From positions 1 to 30,711 of the IMG/VR virus record IMGVR_UViG_3300027782_000256: a DNA stretch of 30,711 bases. One strand, written 5' to 3'. Positions 1-28,528 of this stretch are shown here, in pieces (within the stretch, counting starts at the first letter, position 1; each line of letters opens with the position of its first letter). The position numbers and the translations under genes are program-made. The notes under the pieces were generated by a model, which was given only the letters and a program-made list of their open reading frames with translations, had not been told where the DNA came from and ran no database searches. Source of the DNA: a virus.

Positions 1-1056
1 GGTAAAACTTATAACATAATTTTATGGATGGTGATAAACATTCTCAATCAAGAAGACAAAGTTTATTCTATTGTTCGTAAAACTTTACCCGCCCTTAAAG
101 GTTCAGTTCTCCGTGATTTAAAAGACATCCTAATAAGATTAGAATTATATGATTCCAACAAGTGGCATTCAGTAGATGGTTATGTTCAGATTGGTAGTAA
201 CATTATAGAATGGATATCATGCGATGATGAAACTAAACTTCGTGGTCGTAAAAGAGATATTTGTTTTGTTAATGAAGCCACAGAAATAAGTTACGATGAA
301 TATGTACAATTATCATTAAGAACATCTGAACGAATGATAATGGATTTTAACCCATCATTATGGCAGTCATGGTTATATGATTTAGAAGAACAAGACGATA
401 CATTCTATACAATTACAACATATAAAGATAATATATTTTTACCTCAACAACAAGTAGAAGAAATTGAAAAGTTAAAAACAAGAGACCCCAACTTATGGAG
501 GGTGTTTGGTCTTGGACAAAAAGGTGTTCCCACCAGAGTTGTATTTAATCACCAACAATTCTATTCTGAATTACCACCATCAGCCAAACTCATTGGATAT
601 GGAATTGACTTTGGATTTTCTGACCCTTGTACTTTAATCAAAGTTCATAAAGATGGGGACTCCATTTATTGTGAAGAGTTATTATACTTAAGGAATGTTA
701 CCATACCTGATTTTATTTACAAGATAAAGGACTTGGGAGTCAATCTAACAGACGATTTTATATGTGATAGTGCCAACCCCCAAGCAATAGCAGAGATGTC
801 CCGTAATGGAATAAATGCAAAGCCAGTTAAGAAGGATACAATCCTATCAGGAATAGACCAAATTAAAAGATGTAATTTCTTTGTTCACGATAACTCAAAG
901 AATCTACAAGAAGAATTAAACTCCTATGTTTGGAAGACAAATAAAGATGGAAATAATTTGGATGAACCAGAAGATAAAAACAATCACCTTATTGACCCCA
1001 TCCGTTATCTTCTTACAATGAAGGTAATGAGAAACACTGGTGTGTATGTTTATTAA
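1..1056 (+). CDS. terL: Terminase large subunit, 3' part (gene continues from window end)
   Basis: DNA-packaging motor: ATPase plus nuclease that cuts the concatemer and drives DNA into the procapsid. Frame 1 is open from base 1, so the ATG at 28 is internal. The 5' end lies at 30621-30711 and joins through the shared ggtaaaa to give about 379 residues. Seen here: GKT of Walker A at the first codons; a Walker B-like strand ICFVNEATE with Asn where Asp is usual; the following MIMDFNPS strand; and nuclease acidic residues in GIDFGFSDP, FICDSANPQ and NHLIDPIRYLL, the last being the typical closing Asp motif of the RNase H-like domain. Length and motif order fit the SPP1/Terminase_3-like families. 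It is followed 39 bases later by the tail chaperone-like gene. Confidence 0.95.
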   Translation, partial: GKTYNIILWMVINILNQEDKVYSIVRKTLPALKGSVLRDLKDILIRLELYDSNKWHSVDGYVQIGSNIIEWISCDDETKLRGRKRDICFVNEATEISYDEYVQLSLRTSERMIMDFNPSLWQSWLYDLEEQDDTFYTITTYKDNIFLPQQQVEEIEKLKTRDPNLWRVFGLGQKGVPTRVVFNHQQFYSELPPSAKLIGYGIDFGFSDPCTLIKVHKDGDSIYCEELLYLRNVTIPDFIYKIKDLGVNLTDDFICDSANPQAIAEMSRNGINAKPVKKDTILSGIDQIKRCNFFVHDNSKNLQEELNSYVWKTNKDGNNLDEPEDKNNHLIDPIRYLLTMKVMRNTGVYVY

Positions 1057-1095: not shown

Positions 1096-1838
1096 ATGAC
1101 TACAACACACATAGAATACCAAGGCAAGAAATACGAGGTTAAAGAACCAACCATTGAAACTTGGAAAAACATAATGGTCTTCAAGGATTTGTTAGATGAA
1201 GAAGAAATGTATGTGAAGATGATATCAGAGGTAACAGGATTATCTGTATCACAAATTAAAGAAGCCGATGCCCTACAAATTAGAATTGCGGGGAACAAAT
1301 TGTGGAGACATCTTAACCAAGAATCAAAAGAATTACATAGACATATTGAACACAAAGGTGTTCATTATACATTGGTTGATGTTAACAAAATATCATTTGG
1401 TCAGTTTGTGGATATTGATACATTTTTAAAGAAGGATGAATCGTATAAAGTTGCTAACTTAAATGAACTTGCAGCCTATTTATATTGTGAGTCAGGAACA
1501 ACCTATTCAGATTCTGATTTCACTAAAAGAATTGAAGCATTCAAAGATTTGCCAGTTAAGTATATTGAAGCAAGCATTTTTTTTTTGGTGAATTTAGCCG
1601 AGGGATTGCTACAAATTACCACACTCTATTCCAAGAGCAAGATATTATGGTCGGTGATGAGGCTGAAGATAGCTTTTATCAGTTTTACGGATGGTATGCA
1701 GCGATTTCTTTTCTTGCCGAAGACAAGGTCTGGCAAATTGACCATGTTACTGCTCTCCCCCTTGTGGCTTGTCTTAATCATCTTGCTTACATTGTGGACT
1801 TCAATAACGAAAAAGAAAAACAAATGAAACAAAAATAG
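1096..1838 (+). CDS. Tail assembly chaperone-like protein, -1 frameshift fusion (247 aa)
   Basis: The first ~160 residues (IEYQGKKYEVKEPTIETW..., then SFGQFVDIDTF) resemble the tail assembly chaperone-type proteins of Bacteroidota phages. The zero frame runs on to a stop at 1827, but after the T10 run at 1577-1586 it encodes an implausible Leu/Ile/Lys-rich tail. A -1 shift at the run enters a frame open from 1569 to 1838 that gives GWYAAISFLAEDKVWQIDHV..., which looks like a normal C-terminal chaperone domain. The -1 stop TAG abuts the ATG of the next gene, as expected for coupled translation. The two readings are lambda G/GT-like programmed frameshifting or a homopolymer length error. The chaperone assignment is inferred, and the gene lies far from the tape measure gene (14323), which is unusual. 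Confidence 0.7.
1577..1586 (+). other. T10 slippery run, candidate -1 frameshift site
   Basis: Ten consecutive T. In the zero frame of the 1096 gene this includes T TTT TTT (1578-1584) and T TTT TTG (1581-1587), both classic -1 slippery heptamers. I see no convincing downstream stem-loop or pseudoknot. A run of this length is also a common site of sequencing or assembly length errors. Confidence 0.65.
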
Positions 1839-3572
1839 ATGACTGGTCAAACAATCAACTTCAAGACATTAGCAGATGATTTTTCAAATCTGGCATTTCA
1901 CCACAAACAATTAAACTCGTTTGGTCTTGGGGATGTTACGCAGTTATCCTATTGGACAACCTTAAGGGATAAGGAAGATAATACACATTTCCAAGCCCCA
2001 TACTATCCGTTATTGTATGTTGTTCCATCACAGGTAACAAATCACTTAAGATATAAGACATGGGAGTTTAATACCGTTGTTGCTGATATTGGTGAAGTAG
2101 ATTTGGCTAACCAAGTTGATACCGTATCAGACACCCTACAAATATTACAAGATGTTATCAGTCAGTTTAGATTATCTGTAACACCTTATTTGGGGAATTA
2201 CAACGACAAGTATTATCTTGATGAATCAGTTGTATGTACACCATTCTTGGGTAAACGAGATGATAACTTAAATGGTTGGAATGGTTTATTAAAGATTAAG
2301 ACAATGACCTTCTTGGATAGATGTGCTGCGGCTTACAACACATTTACTGGTACCCCAATTCAACATCTTGAAGGAATTAACTTTAAGACATTCCACGATG
2401 ACTTTGAATTACTTGCCAACTATCATAAAGAATTAAACTCATTTGGGTTTGGTTCAATGGATGACTTTACCTATTGGACGGAATCAAGAGACAAAGAAGA
2501 AAACACACATTTCCAAGCCCCATATTATCCATTGTTGTATGTTGTTCCTGGTGAGGTAGAACAGAACTTTGGATTTATGAATTATTCCTTTACGGTTATT
2601 GTTGCCGATATAATTGAAAGGGATTTAACCAATCAAACTGATGTCCTATCTGATACCAACCAAATCATGGATGATATCATAGGTCAATTTAGATTATCTG
2701 TTACTGACTCATTGGGTAATTTTAACAATGAATATTATTTGGATGACTCAATTACTTGTACCCCATTCCTTGAAAAGTATGATGACTTATTAGGGGGATG
2801 GACAGCAGAGTTAAACATTGAGGTTAAGATTCCACTTAATAGATGTGATGCTGCGTTTGATTCATTCTTGGTTAGTCCTACTCCGACTCCTACCACAACA
2901 CCGACCCCTACCCCAAGTATTACTCCAACACAAACCATTACACCAACACCTACCAATACTGAAACACCAACTCAAACGCCTACTCCAACTAATACTGAAA
3001 CTCCGACTCAAACTCCTACCACAACACCAACTCCTACTAACACTATGACTCCGACAAATACGGAGACACCTACTCAAACGCCTACCCCAACCAATACTGA
3101 AACTCCAACTCAAACTCCTACTCCGACTAACACAGAAACGCCTACTGTTACACCAACAGAGACACCAACCAATACTCCAACAAATACATCAACACCAACG
3201 CCTACTAATACAGAAACTCCAACAACAACACCGACCCCAACTGTAACTGAAACACCAACCAATACACCTACTGTTACTCCAACAGAGACACCGACAAACA
3301 CACCGACTGAAACTCCAACAAGTACACCAACCAATACACCAACGGTAACACCGACAGAGACACCGACAAACACACCGACTGAAACTCCAACAAGTACTCC
3401 AACGGTAACACCAACAACAACCGAGACACCTACTGCGACTGTTACTGAAACCCCAACCAATACACCAACACCTACTTCAACACCAGCTGTTGTTGGAATC
3501 AATAAGTTAATGACTGAAGATAATGACCATATCCATACAGAATCAAATGTTGGATTATTAACAGAACAATAA
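1839..3572 (+). CDS. Virion protein: duplicated 174-aa domain plus long Pro-Thr tract
   Basis: 577 residues. Residues about 6-175 and 180-349 are two copies of one domain: both begin INFKT, share [16 protein letters not shown] and a (V/I)VADI...D..NQ.D.(V/L)SDT.QI..D.I.QFRLSVT core, and end near RC.AA. The core resembles tail terminator/completion-type proteins, but that is a weak inference. Residues about 348-553 are almost pure Pro/Thr with Asn, Glu, Ser and Val in a 2-6 residue rhythm, a flexible stalk. The last ~27 residues ([16 protein letters not shown]...) are non-repetitive and could be a capping peptide. The start ATG directly follows the TAG of the frameshifted upstream product. Function unknown; a structural tail role is inferred from neighbours. 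Confidence 0.8.
2874..3484 (+). repeat. Pro-Thr coding repeat tract
   Basis: About 610 bases of degenerate hexanucleotide-like repeats (ACxCCx ACx...) encoding the PT stalk of the 1839 gene. An exact 43-base copy occurs at 3283-3325 and 3355-3397 (period 72), so the tract is still expanding or contracting by slippage or recombination. Similar shorter tracts lie in the genes at 8581 and 12319. Confidence 0.9.
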
Positions 3573-12318: not shown

Positions 12319-14154
12319 ATGAGTTGTAATTTATATGTCCATAATGACCCGATTGGGGGTTCAAAATATATCATAGGAACACAATGTGATGGTAGTGAAG
12401 GAAGTTATACACTTACCTATGGTCAATCATTGTGTATGAATAACGACCTTCCAATCAGTTATGAATGTGGACTAACAATAAGCGGGGAATGTTTAGCAAC
12501 AACCCCAACACCAACTCCCACACCAAATACATTTTGTTATATTAGTGGAACAGAATTTCCAACATCTGAATTTATTTGTCCTTTTGATGGTAATACTTAT
12601 TACAATATCTATGGCAATTTAACTATTGTTATCGCAATAAATGGTGTTCCAACTTCATCACACCCACCATATACATTTACCCTTATAAACGCTAACTTCC
12701 AAACCGTAACAATTACCATTCCTGATGGTCAATCAAGTTTTACATATACATTCCCATTCAAGATTTATTCTATTGGAACACCTTGTGGCTCAAGTACTGG
12801 TACAACTTGTGGGTATGTTGATTATGATGAATGGTTTATTAACTCTGCTCCAATATCAGTTTGTATAATACAACCAACACCGACTCCTACTGTTACTCCA
12901 ACAATAACGCCAACTAAAACTGTAACACCAACTATTACTCCTACTAAAACATCAACACCGACCCCAACATCTAACCCTGTTTGTCCACAACAAATCGTTG
13001 TTTCTAATTTCACATATTTTGTTACTGATTTAGACGGAACATACGACCGAGTTTATACATACACTGGTGGAACATTCAATTATGGTTATACAACATATAA
13101 TTCATTTACTGGTAATTATGATTTTATACCTGGTTCTTATTTAGGAAACAATTATCCTGTATTTACATCAAATCCAGTAGATAGTCCGTTCAAACCAGCA
13201 ACAATCGTGTTTAACTCTGATTATAATAATTGGATAATGTTATATGGTAATTTAACATCAATTCCTTTAAGTAGTGCATTCATTGTATTTAGTTCATCTA
13301 CAATTTCAATAGGAGGAGGATTATATCCAACAAGTGGAACAAAAGTTCAATTTGATGCGCCAGAAGTAAGTTTTGATTTATCTTATCCTGCTACTTGTCC
13401 AACTCCTACTCCTACTAATACAACAACTCCAACTATTACTCCTACTAAAACAACAACTCCAACTATTACTCCTACTAAAACAACAACTCCAACTATTACT
13501 CCTACTAATACAGTAACTCCAACCAATACAATTACACCAACATCAAGTCCAACAACATCATTATTATCATTTTTAATTACATCAGGACAAAGTGAATATG
13601 AAGCTTGTAATGGTGTTTCAGGAACGGTATATGCACAAGATATTGGTAATTGTGGTGGATGTTATGGTGCTGGATTAAATTGTTGGGCTTGTTTAACCAC
13701 AACACAAGGAATATATTTAGACGCCGCATTAACAATTTTAGCTCCAAATGCTTACTACGCCAATGAAATGGCACCTGGTAATTATGGAATTATTGAAGTT
13801 AGAGGTGGAAAACAAATACCTGCAGGATTTACTGGTGGTTGTCCTGCCAGTCCACCATCACCACCAACAGGAGCCCATGCTTATAGTTACACAGGTTATT
13901 CTGCAAATACAACATACTCAACTTCTTGTGATGCATATACTGGCGGAACTCCATGTATTCTTTATAGTGATTATCCAAATATTGATGAAAGCCCATATTT
14001 GTATAATGTTTCAAGTGGAAGTTCAACAACTAACTTATTTGGTTCATATAGTATGAGACAAAAACCTGATGGAACTGGTGTATTTATCTGTTTCTATTTA
14101 GATAGTTATGGAAAATTAACATCAGCATATACTTTATGTAGTTCAATATGTTAA
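12319..14154 (+). CDS. Modular Cys/Pro-Thr tail fibre (611 aa)
   Basis: Beads-on-a-string protein: an N-terminal ~60-residue Cys domain; a short PT linker (~62-70); domain A (~72-190); PT linker 2 (~191-218); domain B (~220-355); PT linker 3 (~357-412, with PTITPTKTTT units); and a C-terminal Cys/Gly-rich domain (EACNGVSGTVYA ... IYLDAALTILAPNAYYANE). The ACNG...YxDAALTxLAPxxYY signature recurs in Bacteroidota phage and surface proteins of unknown function. The module style matches the C-terminus of the hub gene upstream, so both probably extend from the tail tip and contact the host. No chaperone or enzyme motif was seen. Confidence 0.7.
   Translation: MSCNLYVHNDPIGGSKYIIGTQCDGSEGSYTLTYGQSLCMNNDLPISYECGLTISGECLATTPTPTPTPNTFCYISGTEFPTSEFICPFDGNTYYNIYGNLTIVIAINGVPTSSHPPYTFTLINANFQTVTITIPDGQSSFTYTFPFKIYSIGTPCGSSTGTTCGYVDYDEWFINSAPISVCIIQPTPTPTVTPTITPTKTVTPTITPTKTSTPTPTSNPVCPQQIVVSNFTYFVTDLDGTYDRVYTYTGGTFNYGYTTYNSFTGNYDFIPGSYLGNNYPVFTSNPVDSPFKPATIVFNSDYNNWIMLYGNLTSIPLSSAFIVFSSSTISIGGGLYPTSGTKVQFDAPEVSFDLSYPATCPTPTPTNTTTPTITPTKTTTPTITPTKTTTPTITPTNTVTPTNTITPTSSPTTSLLSFLITSGQSEYEACNGVSGTVYAQDIGNCGGCYGAGLNCWACLTTTQGIYLDAALTILAPNAYYANEMAPGNYGIIEVRGGKQIPAGFTGGCPASPPSPPTGAHAYSYTGYSANTTYSTSCDAYTGGTPCILYSDYPNIDESPYLYNVSSGSSTTNLFGSYSMRQKPDGTGVFICFYLDSYGKLTSAYTLCSSIC
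13411..13500 (+). repeat. 30-base tandem repeat, three units
   Basis: Units at 13411-13440, 13441-13470 and 13471-13500, each encoding PTKTTTPTIT (first unit N for K). Units 2 and 3 are identical at every base, and unit 1 differs by one base. Conserved synonymous positions indicate recent duplication within PT linker 3 of the fibre gene. Confidence 0.9.
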
Positions 14155-14165
14155 AAAATTAAATT

Positions 14166-14330
14166 ATGGAATTAAATATATTTTTAGATGGAGAGCCAGT
14201 TGAATTAAAATCATTGGTTCCCCCAAAACAAATAAACGAAAACTTAACCCAACTTCAAGAGTTGTTCCCATTGTTAGTTGATAATGGAAAGAACATTGAA
14301 TTCTTGGGACAATATATGAATAATGGCTAA
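14166..14330 (+). CDS. Small protein upstream of tape measure (54 aa)
   Basis: ATG at 14166, stop TAA at 14328-14330, overlapping the tape-measure start by 8 bases. The sequence MELNIFLDGEPVELKSLVPP, then QINENLTQLQELFPLLVDNG, is acidic and amphipathic. Tight coupling to the tape measure suggests a role with it, possibly as a small chaperone or tail-length factor, but no family is recognised. Confidence 0.6.
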   Translation: MELNIFLDGEPVELKSLVPPKQINENLTQLQELFPLLVDNGKNIEFLGQYMNNG

Positions 14331-16467
14331 AAAGAAGATAGAAGTTGATGTACAAGTTGATTCCAATTTGGATGGGTCAATTAAACAACTTAAAGAACTA
14401 AAACAACAGTTAAAAAATGTTTCTGTTGGTTCTGAAGAGTTCAAAAAGATATACGGACAAATTGATGACTTGGAAGATAAAATCAAGTCAGCAAAGAATG
14501 TATCATCTGATTGGGTTGACTCATTAGAACAAGCTGGTGGTCCGTTAGGAATGGTTGGTAAGGGTATCAATACCCTTAAAGTATCAACGCAATCATTTGG
14601 TGCTGCATTAAAGGCAACTGGTATTGGTTTAATTGTGGGCTTATTGGGTGGAATGGCTGCCGCTTTAAGTCAGAATGAAAACACAATGAAGAAACTTCAA
14701 CCTGTGATGATTGGGTTGCAAAAAATCTTAGGTGGTATCTTCAAAGCAATTGAACCCCTATTAGATATATTCATTGATTTAGCAATTACTGCTTTACCTT
14801 ATGTTACTAAAGCAATAGGTGGAGTATATGCAGCGTTTTCAGGATTCTTTACCTTCATTAAAAACTATGCTTTTGGGGTTGGAAAAATCCTTAAAGGTAT
14901 ATTCACATTAGATTTTGATTCATTAAAAGAAGGTGTTAAAGACCTTGCTGGTAATTTTGGTAAATCTTGGGATGCGGCTAAAGACACTTATGGTAAGTTT
15001 GAGGCAGGAACCAAAGAACAAACCAAGATTGAAAAAGAAGAATCTGAAAAAAGAAAAAAGAATGCCGCAGATGCCGCAGCAAAAAGAAAAGAACAGGCAG
15101 ATAAGGAATTAGCACAAAGAAAGGCTGACCTTGATGCGAAGATTAAATTAGAAACAGATTCAGAAAACACTTCAAGGGATAACCTTAAACTTCTATTAGA
15201 CCAGAGAATGGCTTTAGAACTACAACAAGTAGGTTTAACTGAAGCACAAAAAGAAGTTATCCGTCAGGATTACGCAAAGAAATTAGAAGAAGCATTAAAG
15301 GTTGATGAAGCCAAAAGAATGCAAGCAAGAGCATCAGAACTTGATGCCCTTATTCAATTAGAAACAGACAAACAAAACACATCAAGAGAACAATTAAAAC
15401 TGTTGCTTGATGAGAGAATGAATATTGAACTTCAGAACAAAGAATTAACTGAAGCTCAAAAAGAAGTCATTAGAGCAAAATACGCAAAACAATTAGAAGA
15501 TGCGGTATTGGCTGATGAACAAAAAATAGAACAAAAAAGAACTGAAACTTTTGATAAAGAACTTATCGCAACTGACGATAAGTATGGTGAGTTAAGAAGA
15601 TTTAGTGAAGATTATTATAATGACTTAAGAGCTCTATACGACAAGAATGATGCAGACCTTAAATCAGCATTGGATAGGGGTGCAATCAGTCAGGATGAGT
15701 ATACAAAGAAATTAGCAGCATCAGGTAAAGCAAGACGAGAAATTGATAAGTTAGAAAAGATGTCTGCAATTGAAAAAACCAAATTGGTTGCAGATGCATT
15801 AGGTCAGTTATCAACTATTGTAGGACAGGATACAGTTGCGGGTAAAGCATTCGCAGTTGCAAAGGCAACCATTGATACCTACCAATCAGCAGTAGCGGCA
15901 TATAAGTCATTAGCGGGTATTCCTGTAATAGGTCCAGCATTGGGTGGTATTGCGGCAGCAGCGGCAGTTGCAACAGGTATCGCAACCGTTAAGAAGATTG
16001 TTGCAGTTCAAGTTCCAAACGCACCAGGTGGTGGAGGTGGAGGTTCAACTGGTGGTGGAGGAGCCCCAACCGCAGCAGCTGGTCCATCAGGAGCGGCAGG
16101 TCCAATCCTTGTTAATTCAACACCAGTAAGAAAAGCACAAGGTGGTTTAATTCGTGGAGGTGGTGGTGGATTCTCTGACTCAATACCAGCATTATTATCC
16201 AATGGTGAGTTTGTTATCAATTCAAGGTCAACCAGATTATTTCAACCATTATTAAATTCAATTAACGATGTTGGTAATTTACCTCAATTTGCTGTTGGTG
16301 GACAGGTTAATAAAAAGAACTTACCACAACAGGATAACACAGAAAGAATTGTCCAAGTAATTGGAGAAACATTTGCTCAAGCACCGATTAGAACTTATGT
16401 AAGTTCAACAGAAATATCTAACACCCAACAGTTTGACCGAGTTATTAAATCTCGTTCTTTAATCTAA
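14323..16467 (+). CDS. Tail tape measure protein (714 aa)
   Basis: Sets tail length and is ejected with the DNA. The N-terminal ~60 residues are a charged helix (MAKKKIEVDVQVDSNLDGSI). A hydrophobic Gly/Ala helix block at ~95-180 (ALKATGIGLIVGLLGGMAAA) is typical of tape measures. A long Lys/Glu/Ala coiled coil follows at ~235-480, containing two 70-residue repeats (starting ~267 and ~337) with shared LET..xNTSR..LKLLLD.RM..EL and LTEAQKEVIR. A second hydrophobic segment lies at ~505-560, then Gly-rich linkers and a short C-terminal domain with SDSIPALLSNGEFVINSRST. By the usual 0.15 nm per residue rule the tail would be near 105 nm, short for a siphovirus. Confidence 0.9.
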   Translation: MAKKKIEVDVQVDSNLDGSIKQLKELKQQLKNVSVGSEEFKKIYGQIDDLEDKIKSAKNVSSDWVDSLEQAGGPLGMVGKGINTLKVSTQSFGAALKATGIGLIVGLLGGMAAALSQNENTMKKLQPVMIGLQKILGGIFKAIEPLLDIFIDLAITALPYVTKAIGGVYAAFSGFFTFIKNYAFGVGKILKGIFTLDFDSLKEGVKDLAGNFGKSWDAAKDTYGKFEAGTKEQTKIEKEESEKRKKNAADAAAKRKEQADKELAQRKADLDAKIKLETDSENTSRDNLKLLLDQRMALELQQVGLTEAQKEVIRQDYAKKLEEALKVDEAKRMQARASELDALIQLETDKQNTSREQLKLLLDERMNIELQNKELTEAQKEVIRAKYAKQLEDAVLADEQKIEQKRTETFDKELIATDDKYGELRRFSEDYYNDLRALYDKNDADLKSALDRGAISQDEYTKKLAASGKARREIDKLEKMSAIEKTKLVADALGQLSTIVGQDTVAGKAFAVAKATIDTYQSAVAAYKSLAGIPVIGPALGGIAAAAAVATGIATVKKIVAVQVPNAPGGGGGGSTGGGGAPTAAAGPSGAAGPILVNSTPVRKAQGGLIRGGGGGFSDSIPALLSNGEFVINSRSTRLFQPLLNSINDVGNLPQFAVGGQVNKKNLPQQDNTERIVQVIGETFAQAPIRTYVSSTEISNTQQFDRVIKSRSLI

Positions 16468-16503: not shown

Positions 16504-18120
16504 ATGAATCTAACTAAAATTGTTGAATTATTCATTGATGACGATTACGAAGATGCTGGTATTGAAGCCATATCTTTAGTATCAAAACCTGCTCACGAGG
16601 AAGAATGGATGGCGTTTAACACACAGACAATCTCAAGTGAAAAGGAGTTTTCACCATATAGAATTGTGGAGGATGACTTCTGCACTCACAATACAAAATT
16701 AGATACATTAGGTGAGCCATATTCACAGTTAATCAACGAGGGTTGGGAAATTGTTAAGATGGAAAAGATAACCCCACAGATGGTTCATAAAATGAATCAA
16801 AATCATTTTTCATTTCCAAATGACCCATCTGAATTAGACACCGAAGATACAAGAGTAAGATTCAAGTACATAGGTCCAAGAGATAATAAAAACAGACAAT
16901 TCTGTTCTGATATGTTATCAAAGAATAGAGTATATCGTAATGAAGACATTGATGATTTAACCAATGAGGTTGCTAATCCCCAATTCGGTAGATATGATAT
17001 ATTCTTATGGAGGGGTTCTTATAACTGCCGTCATGTATGGGTTAAACTCATATACAAAAAAGAAGGTAAGATTATCAACAACGCTAACTCAACCAGAGGT
17101 CTTGAAGATACAGATAGTTTGGGTGGAACAGTTCAACCTGATACAAGAAACGATGCTACGGTAGCAAACCCTGGTAAGAATACTTGGAGACCAGGAACCC
17201 CAAGAAATGGTAATTTGTTTGCCGAATCAAAAGGATTGGAAGATGCATGTTGGGAAGGATATGAACCAATTGGACTAAAAGACGATGGTTCCCCTAATTG
17301 TGTTCCAATTAAAATGACTGAAAATGATTTTGCGGAATCAATCAATGACTATCCTGAAGGTGTAAAGAACGCAGCATCTAAAGCTGTTGCTTATGCTGAA
17401 AAGAATGGATGGGGAAGTTGTGGAACTGCTGTTGGTAAGACAAGAGCATCACAACTGGCAAAGGGTGAACCCATTTCAGTTGATACATTAAAAAGAATGT
17501 ATAGTTATCTATCAAGACATAAGGCTGACTTAACTACTTCAAAATCTTATGATGATGGATGTGGTAAGTTGATGTATGATTCTTGGGGTGGAGAAGCAGG
17601 TTTAACCTATTCAGAACGCAAGATAAAGTCATTAGAAAACCAGAAGATGGTATTTGCTTTTGATGATGAAAAGAGAATCGTAGTTGGAGCAGCAATGGTT
17701 CCAAATAAAATGATTTCAAGATACGATGGTCAAGGTAATCTTTACTATGTATTCTTTTCAAAGAAATCAATTAAACAGATGGCTGATAAGTTCTTAAAAG
17801 AAAGAAGAACTGATGAAACATCTGTTGAACACGATGGGGTTAAATTGGGTTCAGATAAAGTATTCGTAACAGAATCGTGGGTATCTGAAGACCCAACATT
17901 AGACAAGTCACACTTCTATGGATTTGAATTACCTGCTGGAACTTGGTTCGTGGCAATGAAGATAAGAGATGATAAGGTGTGGAAGATGATAAAAGAAAAA
18001 TCCTTAACAGGTTTTTCAGTGGAAGGATTATTCGCTGAAAAAAGCGTTTTCTCAAAAGAAGACAAACAAATAAACCAAATAAGAAAACTTATTACTAAAA
18101 TTAAAGATTATGACCAGTAA
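16504..18120 (+). CDS. Multi-domain head protein: MuF-like region plus XkdF-like protease (538 aa)
   Basis: Domains in order: an N-terminal ISLVSKPAHEEEWMAF segment; residues ~116-190 with KYIGPRDNKNRQFC and FGRYDIFLWRGSYNCRHVW, resembling the C-terminal part of Mu gpF-type head morphogenesis proteins; a short Cys segment (ACWEGYEPIGLKDDGSPNC); a ~280-370 domain (AASKAVAYAEKNGWGSCGTA ... RMYSYLSRHKAD ... WGGEAG) common in phage head polyproteins but of unknown function; and residues ~381-510 matching the XkdF-like (Peptidase_S78_2) prohead protease, where H443 (SVEHDG) and S505 (GFSVEG) are plausible catalytic residues. It overlaps the scaffold gene by 11 bases and precedes the capsid, as expected for a maturation protease. 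Combining so many head functions in one chain is notable. Confidence 0.8.
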   Translation: MNLTKIVELFIDDDYEDAGIEAISLVSKPAHEEEWMAFNTQTISSEKEFSPYRIVEDDFCTHNTKLDTLGEPYSQLINEGWEIVKMEKITPQMVHKMNQNHFSFPNDPSELDTEDTRVRFKYIGPRDNKNRQFCSDMLSKNRVYRNEDIDDLTNEVANPQFGRYDIFLWRGSYNCRHVWVKLIYKKEGKIINNANSTRGLEDTDSLGGTVQPDTRNDATVANPGKNTWRPGTPRNGNLFAESKGLEDACWEGYEPIGLKDDGSPNCVPIKMTENDFAESINDYPEGVKNAASKAVAYAEKNGWGSCGTAVGKTRASQLAKGEPISVDTLKRMYSYLSRHKADLTTSKSYDDGCGKLMYDSWGGEAGLTYSERKIKSLENQKMVFAFDDEKRIVVGAAMVPNKMISRYDGQGNLYYVFFSKKSIKQMADKFLKERRTDETSVEHDGVKLGSDKVFVTESWVSEDPTLDKSHFYGFELPAGTWFVAMKIRDDKVWKMIKEKSLTGFSVEGLFAEKSVFSKEDKQINQIRKLITKIKDYDQ

Positions 18121-19155: not shown

Positions 19156-20124
19156 ATGAAAAAAAATCTTTCAAAATTGAATTTTTCATACGACTTGGGT
19201 GGTTTAACTTCTTATGTTGATGCGTTAAATAGCGATATCATCAGCGAAGCGGTTTTAACTCCAGCGACTATGGAGTATTGCAACGTTATTCCTGGTATTA
19301 AAGGAACACAAAACGTTAACTTGTTATCTGAAACATTGGCTGTACAAACTGGTACAACTTGTGGATGGAGCAACGAAGGAGCTGTAACCTTCACAACTGC
19401 AGCAGTTACTGTTGCGGCATTAAAAGTGAATCAATCACTTTGTTTACAGCAGCTAAATACACTTTGGTTGGGTCAATTCTTGAATCCTGGTTCATATAAT
19501 GAGACAGCACCATTTGAGCAAGCAATCATTGATTTGCAAACTAAACAAATCAAAAGATATAACGAAGATTTGTTATGGGCTGCATCAAGTGCAACTACTT
19601 CATTTAGTGGTTTCAAAGAATTATTAGCTAACACAGCTGGTGTTGTTAAATTAACAGGTCAAACTGCATTATGTTCTGTAACAGGTACTAACGCAACTGA
19701 AAAGGCGAACAATGTATTAGCTCAAGTTGATAACATGATTAACTCTTTAGACAGAAATGTTTATGATAGAGACGATATCGTTATCTTCATGAGTCAAGCA
19801 CAATTCAAGTGTTACTTAACTGCAATCAGAAATGTTAACAACTTCTACATTGATTCAAGTGAAAACAAATTAGGTTCAGTTTATTCTGTATACCATCCTC
19901 AAACAAACTACAAAGTTGTAGGTGTACCAGGATTGGCTGGAAGTAACTTAATCGCTATGGCTCCTGCTCAGTATTTCTTAGTAGGTGTTGATTTAACATC
20001 TGATGAGGATTCATTCAGAGCTTGGTGGTCACAAGATTTCCAAGAAGTAAGAATGATGGCTGCATGGAAGTTAGGAACTCAAATTGCGTTCCCACAGTTC
20101 TTTGTTACTAACGGATTATCTTAA
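19156..20124 (+). CDS. Major capsid protein, HK97-fold type (322 aa)
   Basis: Position after protease and scaffold, length, and sequence pattern fit an HK97-fold capsid protein: N-arm plus E-loop-like region (~40-100, with AVTFTTAAVTVAALKVNQSL), spine-helix region with IKRYNEDLLWAASSA, and P/A-domain segments (VYDRDDIVIFMSQAQFKCYL, VVGVPGL, VRMMAAWKLGTQIAFPQFFV). Seven Cys residues are scattered along the chain. No start-proximal ATATTTA motif; the leader is A-rich. A strong hairpin follows the stop at 20135-20166. Confidence 0.85.
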   Translation: MKKNLSKLNFSYDLGGLTSYVDALNSDIISEAVLTPATMEYCNVIPGIKGTQNVNLLSETLAVQTGTTCGWSNEGAVTFTTAAVTVAALKVNQSLCLQQLNTLWLGQFLNPGSYNETAPFEQAIIDLQTKQIKRYNEDLLWAASSATTSFSGFKELLANTAGVVKLTGQTALCSVTGTNATEKANNVLAQVDNMINSLDRNVYDRDDIVIFMSQAQFKCYLTAIRNVNNFYIDSSENKLGSVYSVYHPQTNYKVVGVPGLAGSNLIAMAPAQYFLVGVDLTSDEDSFRAWWSQDFQEVRMMAAWKLGTQIAFPQFFVTNGLS

Positions 20125-20200: not shown

Positions 20201-20731
20201 ATGGCATGCAATCTTTCAAGTGGTATTTTATTAAGTTGTCGTGATAATGTGGCAGGTGTTCAAACAATCTGGGTAACAGATTTCACAAACATTGACTCAA
20301 TCACGAAAAACTCTGGTGATACCATTACATCAATCTCAGGCTCAGGCACTTTCTATGAGTTCCAATTGATTAGAACCAGTTCTCAATACACTGAAACAGT
20401 AAATGCTTCATTGGAAAACGGAACTGTATTCTATACTCAAGAACTTGTAACTTATTTTGCTAAATTAGACCAAACAAAAAGAAACATCCTTAAAACATTG
20501 GCTCAATCTCCAAGATTGGCTATTGTGATGGAAGATAATAACAACAATTACTTCTATTTGGGTGAAACTTATGGTTCATTTATCTCTGCTGGTTCATCTG
20601 TAACTGGTAAAGCATTAGGTGACCAAGCTGGTTATAATTTAACATTCCAAGCTCTTGAACCAAACCCAATGAACGAATTATCGGGTTCATTATCAAGTGT
20701 AGCAACTGGTATAACAGTTCAACTTAACTAA
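20201..20731 (+). CDS. Major tail tube protein (176 aa)
   Basis: Compact beta-rich protein of typical tube-subunit size, ending in a GYNLTFQALEPNPMNELSGS segment like the closing strands of tail-tube folds. It is flanked by two strong intergenic hairpins, like the neighbouring capsid gene, which fits high-level expression. The start ATG follows an A-rich leader. Tail tube assignment is inferred from size, composition and place; a head decoration protein is the main alternative. Confidence 0.65.
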   Translation: MACNLSSGILLSCRDNVAGVQTIWVTDFTNIDSITKNSGDTITSISGSGTFYEFQLIRTSSQYTETVNASLENGTVFYTQELVTYFAKLDQTKRNILKTLAQSPRLAIVMEDNNNNYFYLGETYGSFISAGSSVTGKALGDQAGYNLTFQALEPNPMNELSGSLSSVATGITVQLN

Positions 20732-23327: not shown

Positions 23328-24119
23328 TTGCCTATCCCGACCCCATCCAAAGAAGAAAAATACGAAAACTTTTTAAGTAGATGTATTAAAGCCATCTATG
23401 ATGAGTATGGACAAGAACAGGCAACAGCAATTTGTAGCTCACAATGGGCGAATAGAAATATGAAACAACAAGAAGAAATCTTTGTGTTAACCCCAAAGAA
23501 AAACGAGAACAGAGGTAGTTATTTATCAAGATGTTCTGCTCATACAAAAATGAGAGCTCAATTCCCTAACATGAAAGAAAGAATGGGAACTTGTCTAAAC
23601 GCATTTAACTCATACTACAAATATTGGAGTAAGTTAGAAGAGTTTACAGAAGGAACCGCTATTGGTGATTGTATTGCAAAAGAAAAAGCCAAGGGGTTTG
23701 ATTATCGTGAAGCATACCAACATTGTGCCAGTAAGGTTGTTGTTACTCCTGGTCCCATTGTATTATCAAATGAGGACAACTTAATCGTTGAACCTGTCGC
23801 AATGTCTGAAGATGTATCTGTGGACTTTGACGATACATTCAACACAGAGCGTGGAAAAGAATTAGTCCAAAAACTAATTGATAGTGGTATGATTATTCAT
23901 ATCATTACCAGAAGGCAACAATCAGCCTCTAAACCTGTTTATGACCTTGCAACTGAATATGGTATTCCAAGAGATAGAGTCCATTTCACCAACGGAAAAC
24001 TTAAATGGGAAATGATTAAAGAATTGGGTATCAAAAAACACTTTGATAATAACCCTGACGAGATTAAAGCAATTAAGGAAAACTTACCAGAGGTAATAGC
24101 TGAAAAGTTTTTTGATTAA
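23328..24119 (+). CDS. Cys-pair repeat protein fused to HAD phosphatase domain (263 aa)
   Basis: The start is TTG at 23328: the codon two before it is a stop, there is no ATG nearby, and PIPTPSKEEKYENFLSRC resembles the usual N-terminus of this Cys domain in phages. Three modules carry spaced Cys pairs (C19/C36, C69/C89, C115/C133) with repeated YxxxLSRC and C.S.W or C..A patterns, perhaps disulfide or metal modules. Residues ~163-263 form a HAD hydrolase with all motifs: VDFDDT (D166, D168), IITRR (T194), K226 or nearby, and HFDNNPDE (D240). HAD enzymes transfer phosphate; the substrate here is unknown. Last gene before the operon terminator. The fusion is unusual. Confidence 0.75.
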   Translation: MPIPTPSKEEKYENFLSRCIKAIYDEYGQEQATAICSSQWANRNMKQQEEIFVLTPKKNENRGSYLSRCSAHTKMRAQFPNMKERMGTCLNAFNSYYKYWSKLEEFTEGTAIGDCIAKEKAKGFDYREAYQHCASKVVVTPGPIVLSNEDNLIVEPVAMSEDVSVDFDDTFNTERGKELVQKLIDSGMIIHIITRRQQSASKPVYDLATEYGIPRDRVHFTNGKLKWEMIKELGIKKHFDNNPDEIKAIKENLPEVIAEKFFD

Positions 24120-24145
24120 AGTTGATTACCAAGATACTATTTTGT

Positions 24146-24298
24146 ATATTTAGTATTAGAATGGTCGGGGGATATCGCTGTTTTATTTTTTTATTCTGAA
24201 TGTCTCTATTTATCTACACAATCCCCCACCTTCTTTTTTATATTTAATGTCCCATCATTATAAATTCCAATCTCCTAAAAAAAGATTGGTTTTTTTTT
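24146..24298 (+). ncRNA. Candidate non-coding RNA at end of late block
   Basis: The 239-base gap between the HAD gene and the 24359 gene holds an ATATTTAGTA motif (24146), a GGT-C-GGGGGAT arm (24163-24173) able to pair with ATCCCCCACC (24221-24230) across a 47-base loop, a T-rich tract and then a strong terminator. This could be a small transcribed RNA or just a large 3' untranslated stem. No conserved RNA family is recognised. Confidence 0.3.
24267..24298 (+). terminator. Rho-independent terminator of late block
   Basis: CCAATCT (24267-24273) pairs with AGATTGG (24283-24289), loop CCTAAAAAA, followed by nine T (24290-24298). Closes the long + strand structural operon. Confidence 0.9.
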
Positions 24299-24308
24299 GT
24301 CTATTCGC

Positions 24309-24339
24309 TTGACTAATATACCTACCTATACTATATTTT
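24309..24339 (+). promoter_or_regulatory. Candidate promoter for 24359 gene
   Basis: TTG at 24309 and TATATTTT at 24332 are 20 bases apart, close to the Bacteroidota TTG / TAnnTTTG layout. TTGACT and TATATT also give a sigma-70-like pair with 17-base spacing. It lies right after the terminator and ~20 bases before the next ATG. Confidence 0.45.
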
Positions 24340-24358
24340 AATTATAAATTAGATAGAT

Positions 24359-24532
24359 ATGGAAACAATTAAAAACTTAAATGAATGGAATGTTGATAGC
24401 ATCCTTGAAGTAAAACCTAAAACCGTTAAAGATGTTGTTACGACTCTTTTGGATGACGAGTGGTTTGATAAAATGTCCACCTGTGGATTGACCTATGGTG
24501 AAATAAATGAATTAGAAAAATATAACAAATAA
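24359..24532 (+). CDS. Small hypothetical protein (57 aa)
   Basis: ATG at 24359, stop TAA at 24530-24532. The product begins METIKNLNEWNVDSILEVKP and is acidic with two short helical segments. It starts 60 bases after the late terminator and sits 4 bases before the next gene, so it probably opens the early block. No domain recognised. Confidence 0.6.
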   Translation: METIKNLNEWNVDSILEVKPKTVKDVVTTLLDDEWFDKMSTCGLTYGEINELEKYNK

Positions 24533-26274: not shown

Positions 26275-26751
26275 ATGAAAACACTACAAGAAATATTAGA
26301 TGACTTTAGAGAGTCAAACGCATCCAAGTTATCAAGACGACAGATTGGTGGTCTAATGACTATGAGAAAGAATGGGTCAGGTACTGTTGTATGTCCAATA
26401 TGTAAAAGTGTTGGTAGTAAATCGGTGATGAAAAGCATACACTTTGAGAACTGTGTTAGACCAAGTGGTTATTCTAATCAGGTAATAGTTGATAAGTATG
26501 TTAGTGGTCTTTCCCCTTCTCATATAGCATTAGAATGTAATATTACTGGTACATCAGTTAGAAGAATCTTAGCAAAGATGGGTCATGACCCTGTAACTAA
26601 AATGGTTACAGATAGAGATGACTTATACAATAAAATCATAGAGTTGAAGAAACAAGGTTATACTAATGAAAAAATAAAGAATAAACTTAACACATCAAAC
26701 GGAACAGTAGATAGAGCAATAAGAAAATGGAAAACATACAACAACATATAG
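26275..26751 (+). CDS. Zinc finger plus tandem HTH protein (158 aa)
   Basis: Residues C40, C43, H56 and C60 (CPIC ... HFENC) form a likely CCHC zinc finger like those attached to phage HNH/homing endonucleases. Two helix-turn-helix-like segments follow: ~66-100 (VDKYVSGLSPSHIALECNIT) and ~112-150 (KIIELKKQGYTNEKIKNKLN). No nuclease motif is visible, so a DNA-binding regulator or a homing-endonuclease remnant are both possible. A TAACTTTG at 26260-26267 lies 8 bases before the ATG without a well-placed -33. Confidence 0.65.
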   Translation: MKTLQEILDDFRESNASKLSRRQIGGLMTMRKNGSGTVVCPICKSVGSKSVMKSIHFENCVRPSGYSNQVIVDKYVSGLSPSHIALECNITGTSVRRILAKMGHDPVTKMVTDRDDLYNKIIELKKQGYTNEKIKNKLNTSNGTVDRAIRKWKTYNNI

Positions 26752-27161
26752 ACAACCTATTGAACTCTGATTTTGGTAAATCAAAAGATTCTAATATTCA
26801 TAATATTGCCAATAGAAAAAAAGTATATCAGTTTGATGAAACTGGTAAGTTGATTTGTGAATATGATTCAATAAAAACTTGGAAAAAAAAGTTTGCACAA
26901 AGCGATATAAGTTCAATCACATTATCGTATAAATGCAAAGGATATTATTTTTCATTTGATATTGAGTTTAAACCACCCACAAAAAACAATCGTGGTATTA
27001 AAGGTGAACCAGTTCAACTAATCAAAGATGGTATTGTTATGTATGAGTTTGATACTGTTAAACAGGCACAGGACTTCTTACAGGTAAATCGTTCAACAAT
27101 CAACGATGCTGTGAATGGAAGACAAAAAACCTGTAAGGGATATATTGTGAAAAAAAAGTAA
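26727..27161 (+). CDS. Tandem NUMOD1 DNA-binding protein, no nuclease (144 aa)
   Basis: Overlaps the previous gene by 25 bases. Two NUMOD1-like modules: residues ~32-75 (KVYQFDETGKLICEYDSIKT) and ~95-142 (EFDTVKQAQDFLQVNRSTIN, then AVNGRQKTCKGYIVKKK, the typical xNGxxKTxxGY ending). NUMOD1 normally directs homing endonucleases to DNA; here no GIY-YIG or HNH domain accompanies it. It may act in trans with the nearby zinc-finger proteins or be a domesticated regulator. Confidence 0.7.
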   Translation: MENIQQHIDNLLNSDFGKSKDSNIHNIANRKKVYQFDETGKLICEYDSIKTWKKKFAQSDISSITLSYKCKGYYFSFDIEFKPPTKNNRGIKGEPVQLIKDGIVMYEFDTVKQAQDFLQVNRSTINDAVNGRQKTCKGYIVKKK

Positions 27162-27940: not shown

Positions 27941-28528
27941 ATGAAAAGACAATTTGAAGAACACATCCAAAACTTAATTCTTAATGAAGATAATTTTATC
28001 TATAAGACAAATCTAGAACTATTAAGATTATACTATAATTTTTTATATTCAAAGTTTGAAGATGAAGAATTATGTAGTTTGTATTTAGACCAATTTGATT
28101 CAATTAGTAAAATTACATCATCAAATATTGAAAGTAATTTTAGTGATTTACTAATTGAGTATATGTCTGAATCATTTAATACTAGTGATTTAGATGAATT
28201 AGAATCTTGTTCTGGTTTATACTTCATATTTAATGATATTGATAATTTAATGTACATAGGTAAAACTAAAAATTTATCAACAAGACCAATACAATCATTT
28301 ATTAACAAAATGCCTTATGGAGCATCTTATATTAAAATTATTAAGTATGTCCATATTGATACTGTTGAAGCAGTATTGATTGATTATTATTTACCAATGT
28401 ACAATAATAAAAAAGAAACATTACCATCAATAACAAATAGAACTTACACTAAAGGAGTTGAATTTTGCAAAATGGAATTAACTAAATCAAAAGCAATTTA
28501 TCCAATAGAAGATGAAAAACTTAGCTAA
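27941..28528 (+). CDS. GIY-YIG endonuclease (195 aa)
   Basis: Probable homing-type nuclease. Residues ~90-160 carry the GIY-YIG fold: GLYFIFNDIDNLMYIGKTKN, then an Arg in STRPIQSF and a Glu in VEAVLIDYYLPMYNN, the usual metal-binding position. The first ~85 residues are an unrecognised helical domain that may bind DNA. No intron is apparent next to it, so it could be a free-standing homing endonuclease. It overlaps the next gene by 17 bases, and its A/T-rich codons differ from the ATPase block. Confidence 0.8.
   Translation: MKRQFEEHIQNLILNEDNFIYKTNLELLRLYYNFLYSKFEDEELCSLYLDQFDSISKITSSNIESNFSDLLIEYMSESFNTSDLDELESCSGLYFIFNDIDNLMYIGKTKNLSTRPIQSFINKMPYGASYIKIIKYVHIDTVEAVLIDYYLPMYNNKKETLPSITNRTYTKGVEFCKMELTKSKAIYPIEDEKLS

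Follow-up and report, generated by a model that had tools for sequence, protein, structure and literature searches.

Tail assembly frameshifts are textbook material, and the unshifted protein of these systems simply stops. Gene E of phage P2 likewise uses a -1 shift. In phage lambda, gpG forms a coat around the tape measure, the tube subunit is recruited by the T domain, and frameshifting of the G/GT type is found widely among long-tailed phages (PMC5009743). Slippage can also be a property of transcription, since bacterial RNA polymerase slips efficiently on runs of 9 A or T; in E. coli, U_UUU_UUU is a weaker site for the ribosome than A_AAA_AAG (PMC5009743). Programmed transcriptional slippage, as in Thermus dnaX, Shigella spa13 and IS elements, uses runs of about 9 or more A or T (PMC5009743). 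No case of it in a phage tail gene was found in the literature searched.

The gene described here begins at position 1096 of a 30,711-base virus record with siphophage-like gene content; this whole stretch of DNA is referred to as the window. As in lambda G/GT (PMC5009743), there is one start, a shared N part, a -1 slip near the end of that part and a conserved -1 domain, in a siphophage encoding a tape measure protein (TMP). The locus differs from lambda G/GT (PMC5009743) in that the zero frame runs for about 82 more codons, under selection, to a hydrophobic and basic end, making the two forms similar in length, and in that the gene lies after that of the terminase large subunit (TerL) and no stimulator was found. 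The early end of the zero frame after the slip, a trait of G/GT genes, is absent from the clade of the window (82–94 codons) and present in that of phages P12024S and P12024L. With programmed transcriptional slippage (PMC5009743) the gene shares a run of 9–10 T, a lack of need for stimulators and access to a second frame, the slippage here being putative. The alphavirus 6K/TF system (PMC2569925, PMC5009743) is similar in its -1 shift, in the alternative C-terminus encoded over a dual-coding sequence and in the hydrophilic nature of the shifted ending; it differs in belonging to an RNA virus polyprotein with 3' stimulators in most members, and there is no homology. What is new at this locus is that the zero-frame tail, too, is under purifying selection as judged from sequence comparison. 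With both endings selected over about 80 codons, a ratio-setting switch would have become a choice between two C-termini.

The locus and its relatives

The T10 run is located at 1577..1586 on the plus strand and is the sole T10 of the record (about 0.35 expected from dinucleotide content). Elsewhere in the window, a second long T run (T9) lies between listed ORFs at 24290-24298. The zero frame of gene 1096 reads ATT TTT TTT TTG across the T10 run, in the phase NTT TTT TTT TTR. This reading places two -1 heptamers in phase: T_TTT_TTT at 1578..1584, which is the part common to the two distant T9 sister clades, and T_TTT_TTG at 1581..1587, which is T_TTT_TTA in about 40% of representatives. The N-terminal part shared by both products (1096..1575, plus strand, as are the features that follow) comprises 160 codons. 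The zero-frame tail occupies 1587..1827 (stop at 1825-1827) and is dual-coding with the -1 frame, whose C-terminal domain, conserved in alignments, occupies 1584..1838 (84 codons and a TAG stop at 1836-1838). This TAG abuts the ATG at 1839, and the stops of both frames lie at most 14 nt from that ATG.

TerL is encoded at 1..1056 on the plus strand, its N-terminus being cut by the contig end (PF04466, E=2.9e-20; PF17288, E=3.6e-8). The frameshift gene sits between TerL and the gene at 1839..3572 (plus strand), the ATG of which adjoins the -1 stop. This arrangement is stable: TerL is 12–125 nt upstream in all 104 loci with a detectable TerL, and a homologue of the 1839 gene is downstream in 100/100 loci where it could be detected.

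IMG/VR was scanned with the N and C parts, used singly and as profiles, and 111 distinct versions of the locus were obtained. Exactly ten T in the same phase relation were found in 111/111 distinct loci, down to about 40–50% identity, and the C part was in the -1 frame in every one. The zero-frame extension was 82–94 codons long in 109 loci, the other two being cut by contig ends, and no relative in the window clade had an early zero-frame stop. The first codon of the run was GTT, CTT or ATT in all 46 representatives, as against only 35% of N-part Ile, Leu and Val codons ending in T. The earlier note had proposed, from the window sequence, a T10 run with two in-phase -1 heptamers and two long open frames, a -1 stop touching the next start and a -1 frame change. 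The run, heptamers and frames were confirmed from the sequence and the 111 relatives, the abutting stop and start were verified, and the frame change was supported by the start-codon data given below. That note had named reads with 9 or 11 T, or relatives with a single continuous frame and no T run, as grounds for rejection; in the window clade no relative has a run of 9 or 11 T or an unbroken frame. Some single-frame viral proteins, for example A0A6J7WJY4, weakly match both the N model and the C model, and continuous versions of the gene may exist outside these clades. Searches with the N profile and with the C profile returned no prophage or host genome, and the window protein itself had no match in named phages. 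The phage group carrying the T10 gene is widespread, uncultured and aquatic.

A protein from Nonlabens phage P12024S was picked up by Foldseek. P12024S (JQ823122, locus L271) and P12024L (JQ823123, locus L258, 23946-24640) are isolated Nonlabens (Persicivirga) phages. The P12024L gene that follows TerL (23946-24473) contains a T9 run, and its -1 frame is matched by the C profile (E=4.4e-9). The P12024 genes resemble those of the window clade in their position after TerL, in the phase of the T run and in the homologous -1 C domain. They differ in having T9, in all members of the clade, and a short zero-frame tail of the classical G/GT kind: this frame ends 16–25 codons past the run, the length expected by chance, and is unconstrained. 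P12024L_40 is annotated as hypothetical and no frameshift appears in the annotation; a single gene frameshifted at T9 has probably been annotated in two pieces, P12024L_40 and P12024L_41. Since ordinary gene calling tracks one frame, it can easily overlook the conserved -1 domain or make it a separate gene; the P12024 annotation is an example. Another Foldseek match, Flavobacterium phage 6H, was rejected (low TM-score, no match to the C profile).

A third clade (L272, L274, L275, L279 and L286) has T9 before TGG and the C domain in the -1 frame, starting at 2998 in L272. Its zero frame is open for 70 codons (P ~0.01) and has no hydrophobic segment; this is possibly an independent dual-coding tail. 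As the tail is long but not hydrophobic, a membrane role would not be general. The division into N and C parts at a T run is common to the three clades, indicating that the frameshift is old; the long selected zero-frame tail, by these comparisons, is limited to some clades.

Selection on the two C-termini

To estimate the stops expected in the zero frame, synonymous codons of the -1 protein were redrawn and zero-frame stops were then counted. This resampling predicts 4.5–7.3 stops per 75 codons, and 0 were seen (P<=0.0007 for each sequence). In 24 independent pairs, changes silent in the -1 frame and altering the zero frame occurred at 0.134 per site, versus 0.259 in the N part (rate ratio of overlap to N part 0.52, CI 0.39-0.66; lower in 21/24 pairs; Wilcoxon p=4e-5). 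The zero-frame dNN/dNS was 0.42 (CI 0.34-0.50), versus 0.82 (0.70-0.99) for the N-part control. Synonymous identity was raised over the whole overlap and not merely after the run, which fits coding rather than a local RNA signal. Together, these results strongly support purifying selection on the zero-frame tail of the window clade; combined with an openness beyond chance, they indicate that about 80 codons are dual-coding.

The zero-frame tail contains the hydrophobic segment LTMLLLSPLWLVLIILLTL (1738..1794, plus strand; mean Kyte-Doolittle 2.55 over 19 residues), followed by a K-rich tail end. The best 19-residue Kyte-Doolittle window had a family mean of 2.36, versus about 1.1 in simulations conditioned on openness, and the position of the peak was shared by 45 of the 46 representatives. 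The excess was absent in four controls, taken from the overlap in its +2 frame and from other frames of the N part. The hydrophobicity reported in the earlier note thus holds, and on the evidence of simulations and controls it is due to selection rather than accident. The accompanying statement that only the -1 product looks normal was too strong, as purifying selection acts on the zero frame as well.

Structure prediction for the zero-frame product gave, with moderate confidence, a long C-terminal helix (residues 211-242) containing the hydrophobic segment. The -1 C domain, folded alone apart from the N part, was predicted to be all-helical (pLDDT 65). Mean net charge is about -3 for the -1 domain and about +11 for the zero-frame tail. 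A fold search of the PDB returned no matches; the models are of medium to low confidence.

Three other accounts of the two frames were weighed. The run might be a sequencing or assembly artefact, or the gene a recent pseudogene, with nine T in the true run and a continuous gene; long homopolymers are error-prone and the window is a single metagenome contig. The probability of this is negligible, since identical T10 runs occur in 111 distinct loci out of many assemblies, isolate genomes carry T9 in homologous phase and both frames are under selection; the conserved loci were taken to rule it out, and drift with it. The C domain might instead be a separate, internally started gene and not a fusion. 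The -1 frame of the window does have an ATG at 1647, which would give 63 aa. Such a protein would lose the conserved C-domain residues F1, F4, L15, F16 and E18; conservation of this domain begins at the run itself (F1, L15, F16 and E18 in the alignment), and in 42/46 representatives the -1 frame lacks an ATG, GTG or TTG early enough to start it. On these grounds internal initiation was discarded as very improbable, and the C domain has to arise as a fusion, reachable only through a frame change. Finally, only the -1 product might matter, the zero frame being kept open so that non-shifting ribosomes reach the gene end, with coupling to the next start or avoidance of polarity as the purpose. Coupling of a stop to a nearby start is common in phages, and both stops do lie within 14 nt of the ATG at 1839. 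We consider this account unlikely: selection sees the amino acids of the zero frame and not merely its stops, the hydrophobic segment exceeds simulations already conditioned on openness, and the P12024 clade copes with zero-frame stops 16–25 codons past the run.

Slippage by the ribosome or by RNA polymerase

Of the features expected for canonical -1 frameshifting, an in-phase X_XXY_YYZ heptamer was present and a stimulatory structure or element was absent. No conserved RNA structure was detected downstream of the run (0 consensus pairs; MFE z of +0.3 to +0.5), and synonymous conservation just upstream, where a stimulator or SD-like element would lie, was not raised (obs/exp 0.96). As to run length, for which at least 9 T are expected in slippage, T10 was found in 111/111 loci and T9 in the sister clades, and never fewer than 9. 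The fourth codon of the run retains its first T across clades while coding for L, Y or W.

Classical ribosomal -1 frameshifting at T_TTT_TTT or T_TTT_TTR, similar to that of lambda G/GT and with both endings used, would give products identical to those of polymerase slippage through a different machinery. Both heptamers are in phase, the T_TTT_TTT core is retained in all three clades and frameshifting of the G/GT kind occurs widely in long-tailed phages (PMC5009743). Neither a conserved downstream structure nor a conserved upstream element accompanies the heptamers, however, and the runs never fall below 9 T though 7 suffice, with the first T of codon 4 constant. We place the chances of this ribosomal reading, taken with both endings used, only a little short of even. 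The missing stimulators and the runs of never fewer than 9 T slightly favour slippage of RNA polymerase at the T run, with a slip by the ribosome on T_TTT_TTT nearly as plausible; the two were kept this close since the heptamer together with amino-acid needs can account for every T. For the same reason, the invariance of T10 was rejected as proof of polymerase slippage.

Proposed function and genome context

Matches of the N part to phrog_166 ('tail protein') were obtained in the window (1120-1317, E=1e-4) and in 14/21 members (best 6.6e-6). Weak matches to PF10109 (Phage_TAC_7), a family whose description names the phage tail assembly chaperones E, 41 or 14, occurred in 3/21 members (best 4.8e-4), with no match in the window itself. 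The N part is a putative tail assembly chaperone. The TMP gene (14323-16467) lies 12.7 kb downstream of the frameshift gene and is not adjacent to it, unlike in classical G/GT. An assignment of the locus to the G/GT type thus stands in part: the functional analogy is good and the slippery site is conserved, but the gene lies away from TMP and its homology to chaperones is weak.

According to the model that we propose, gene 1096 would give rise to two proteins with a common 160-residue N-terminal domain and C-termini of nearly equal length. Without a slip, the zero frame would yield a basic tail ending in a conserved hydrophobic helix followed by Lys and Arg. A slip at T10, by loss of one base or one step back, would lead into the -1 frame and to a soluble, slightly acidic helical domain. 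By analogy with lambda gpG and the T domain, the zero-frame form would be a gpG-like coat and the -1 form a gpGT-like recruiter of a tail component. While the phage tail is being assembled, the hydrophobic zero-frame end might bind either hydrophobic parts of TMP or the inner membrane. That one gene has two selected C-termini with chaperone-like roles of the G/GT type is, in our assessment, probable. The full version, in which host polymerase slippage at T10 produces two chaperone forms over about 80 dual-coding codons and the unshifted tail binds the membrane or the tape measure, is put forward tentatively, at somewhat less than even chances. If true, the G/GT switch would exist here in a dual-coding form that operates at transcription. 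The locus offers a clean natural test of polymerase slippage in virion assembly, for which the cultured phages P12024S and P12024L are a starting point.

The host of the window phage is likely to belong to the Bacteroidota, since the window TerL is nearest to those of Flavobacterium phages (34%) and Nonlabens phages carry the homologous locus. A capsid-like gene at 19156-20124, judged by eye and position, had zero relatives among 50,697 named phage records, indicating that the group is far from cultured phages. An XkdF-like protease is encoded at 16504, and a candidate tail-tube gene lies at 20201-20731. Long Thr/Pro repeat arrays of the TPTPT type are present at 1839-3572 and 12319-14154, both matching phrog_15511. 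Read by eye only, the ORF at 27941-28528 contains a GIY-YIG-like stretch, GLYFIFNDIDNLMYIGKTKN, and the repeats of the ORF at 26727-27161 resemble NUMOD-type DNA-binding modules.
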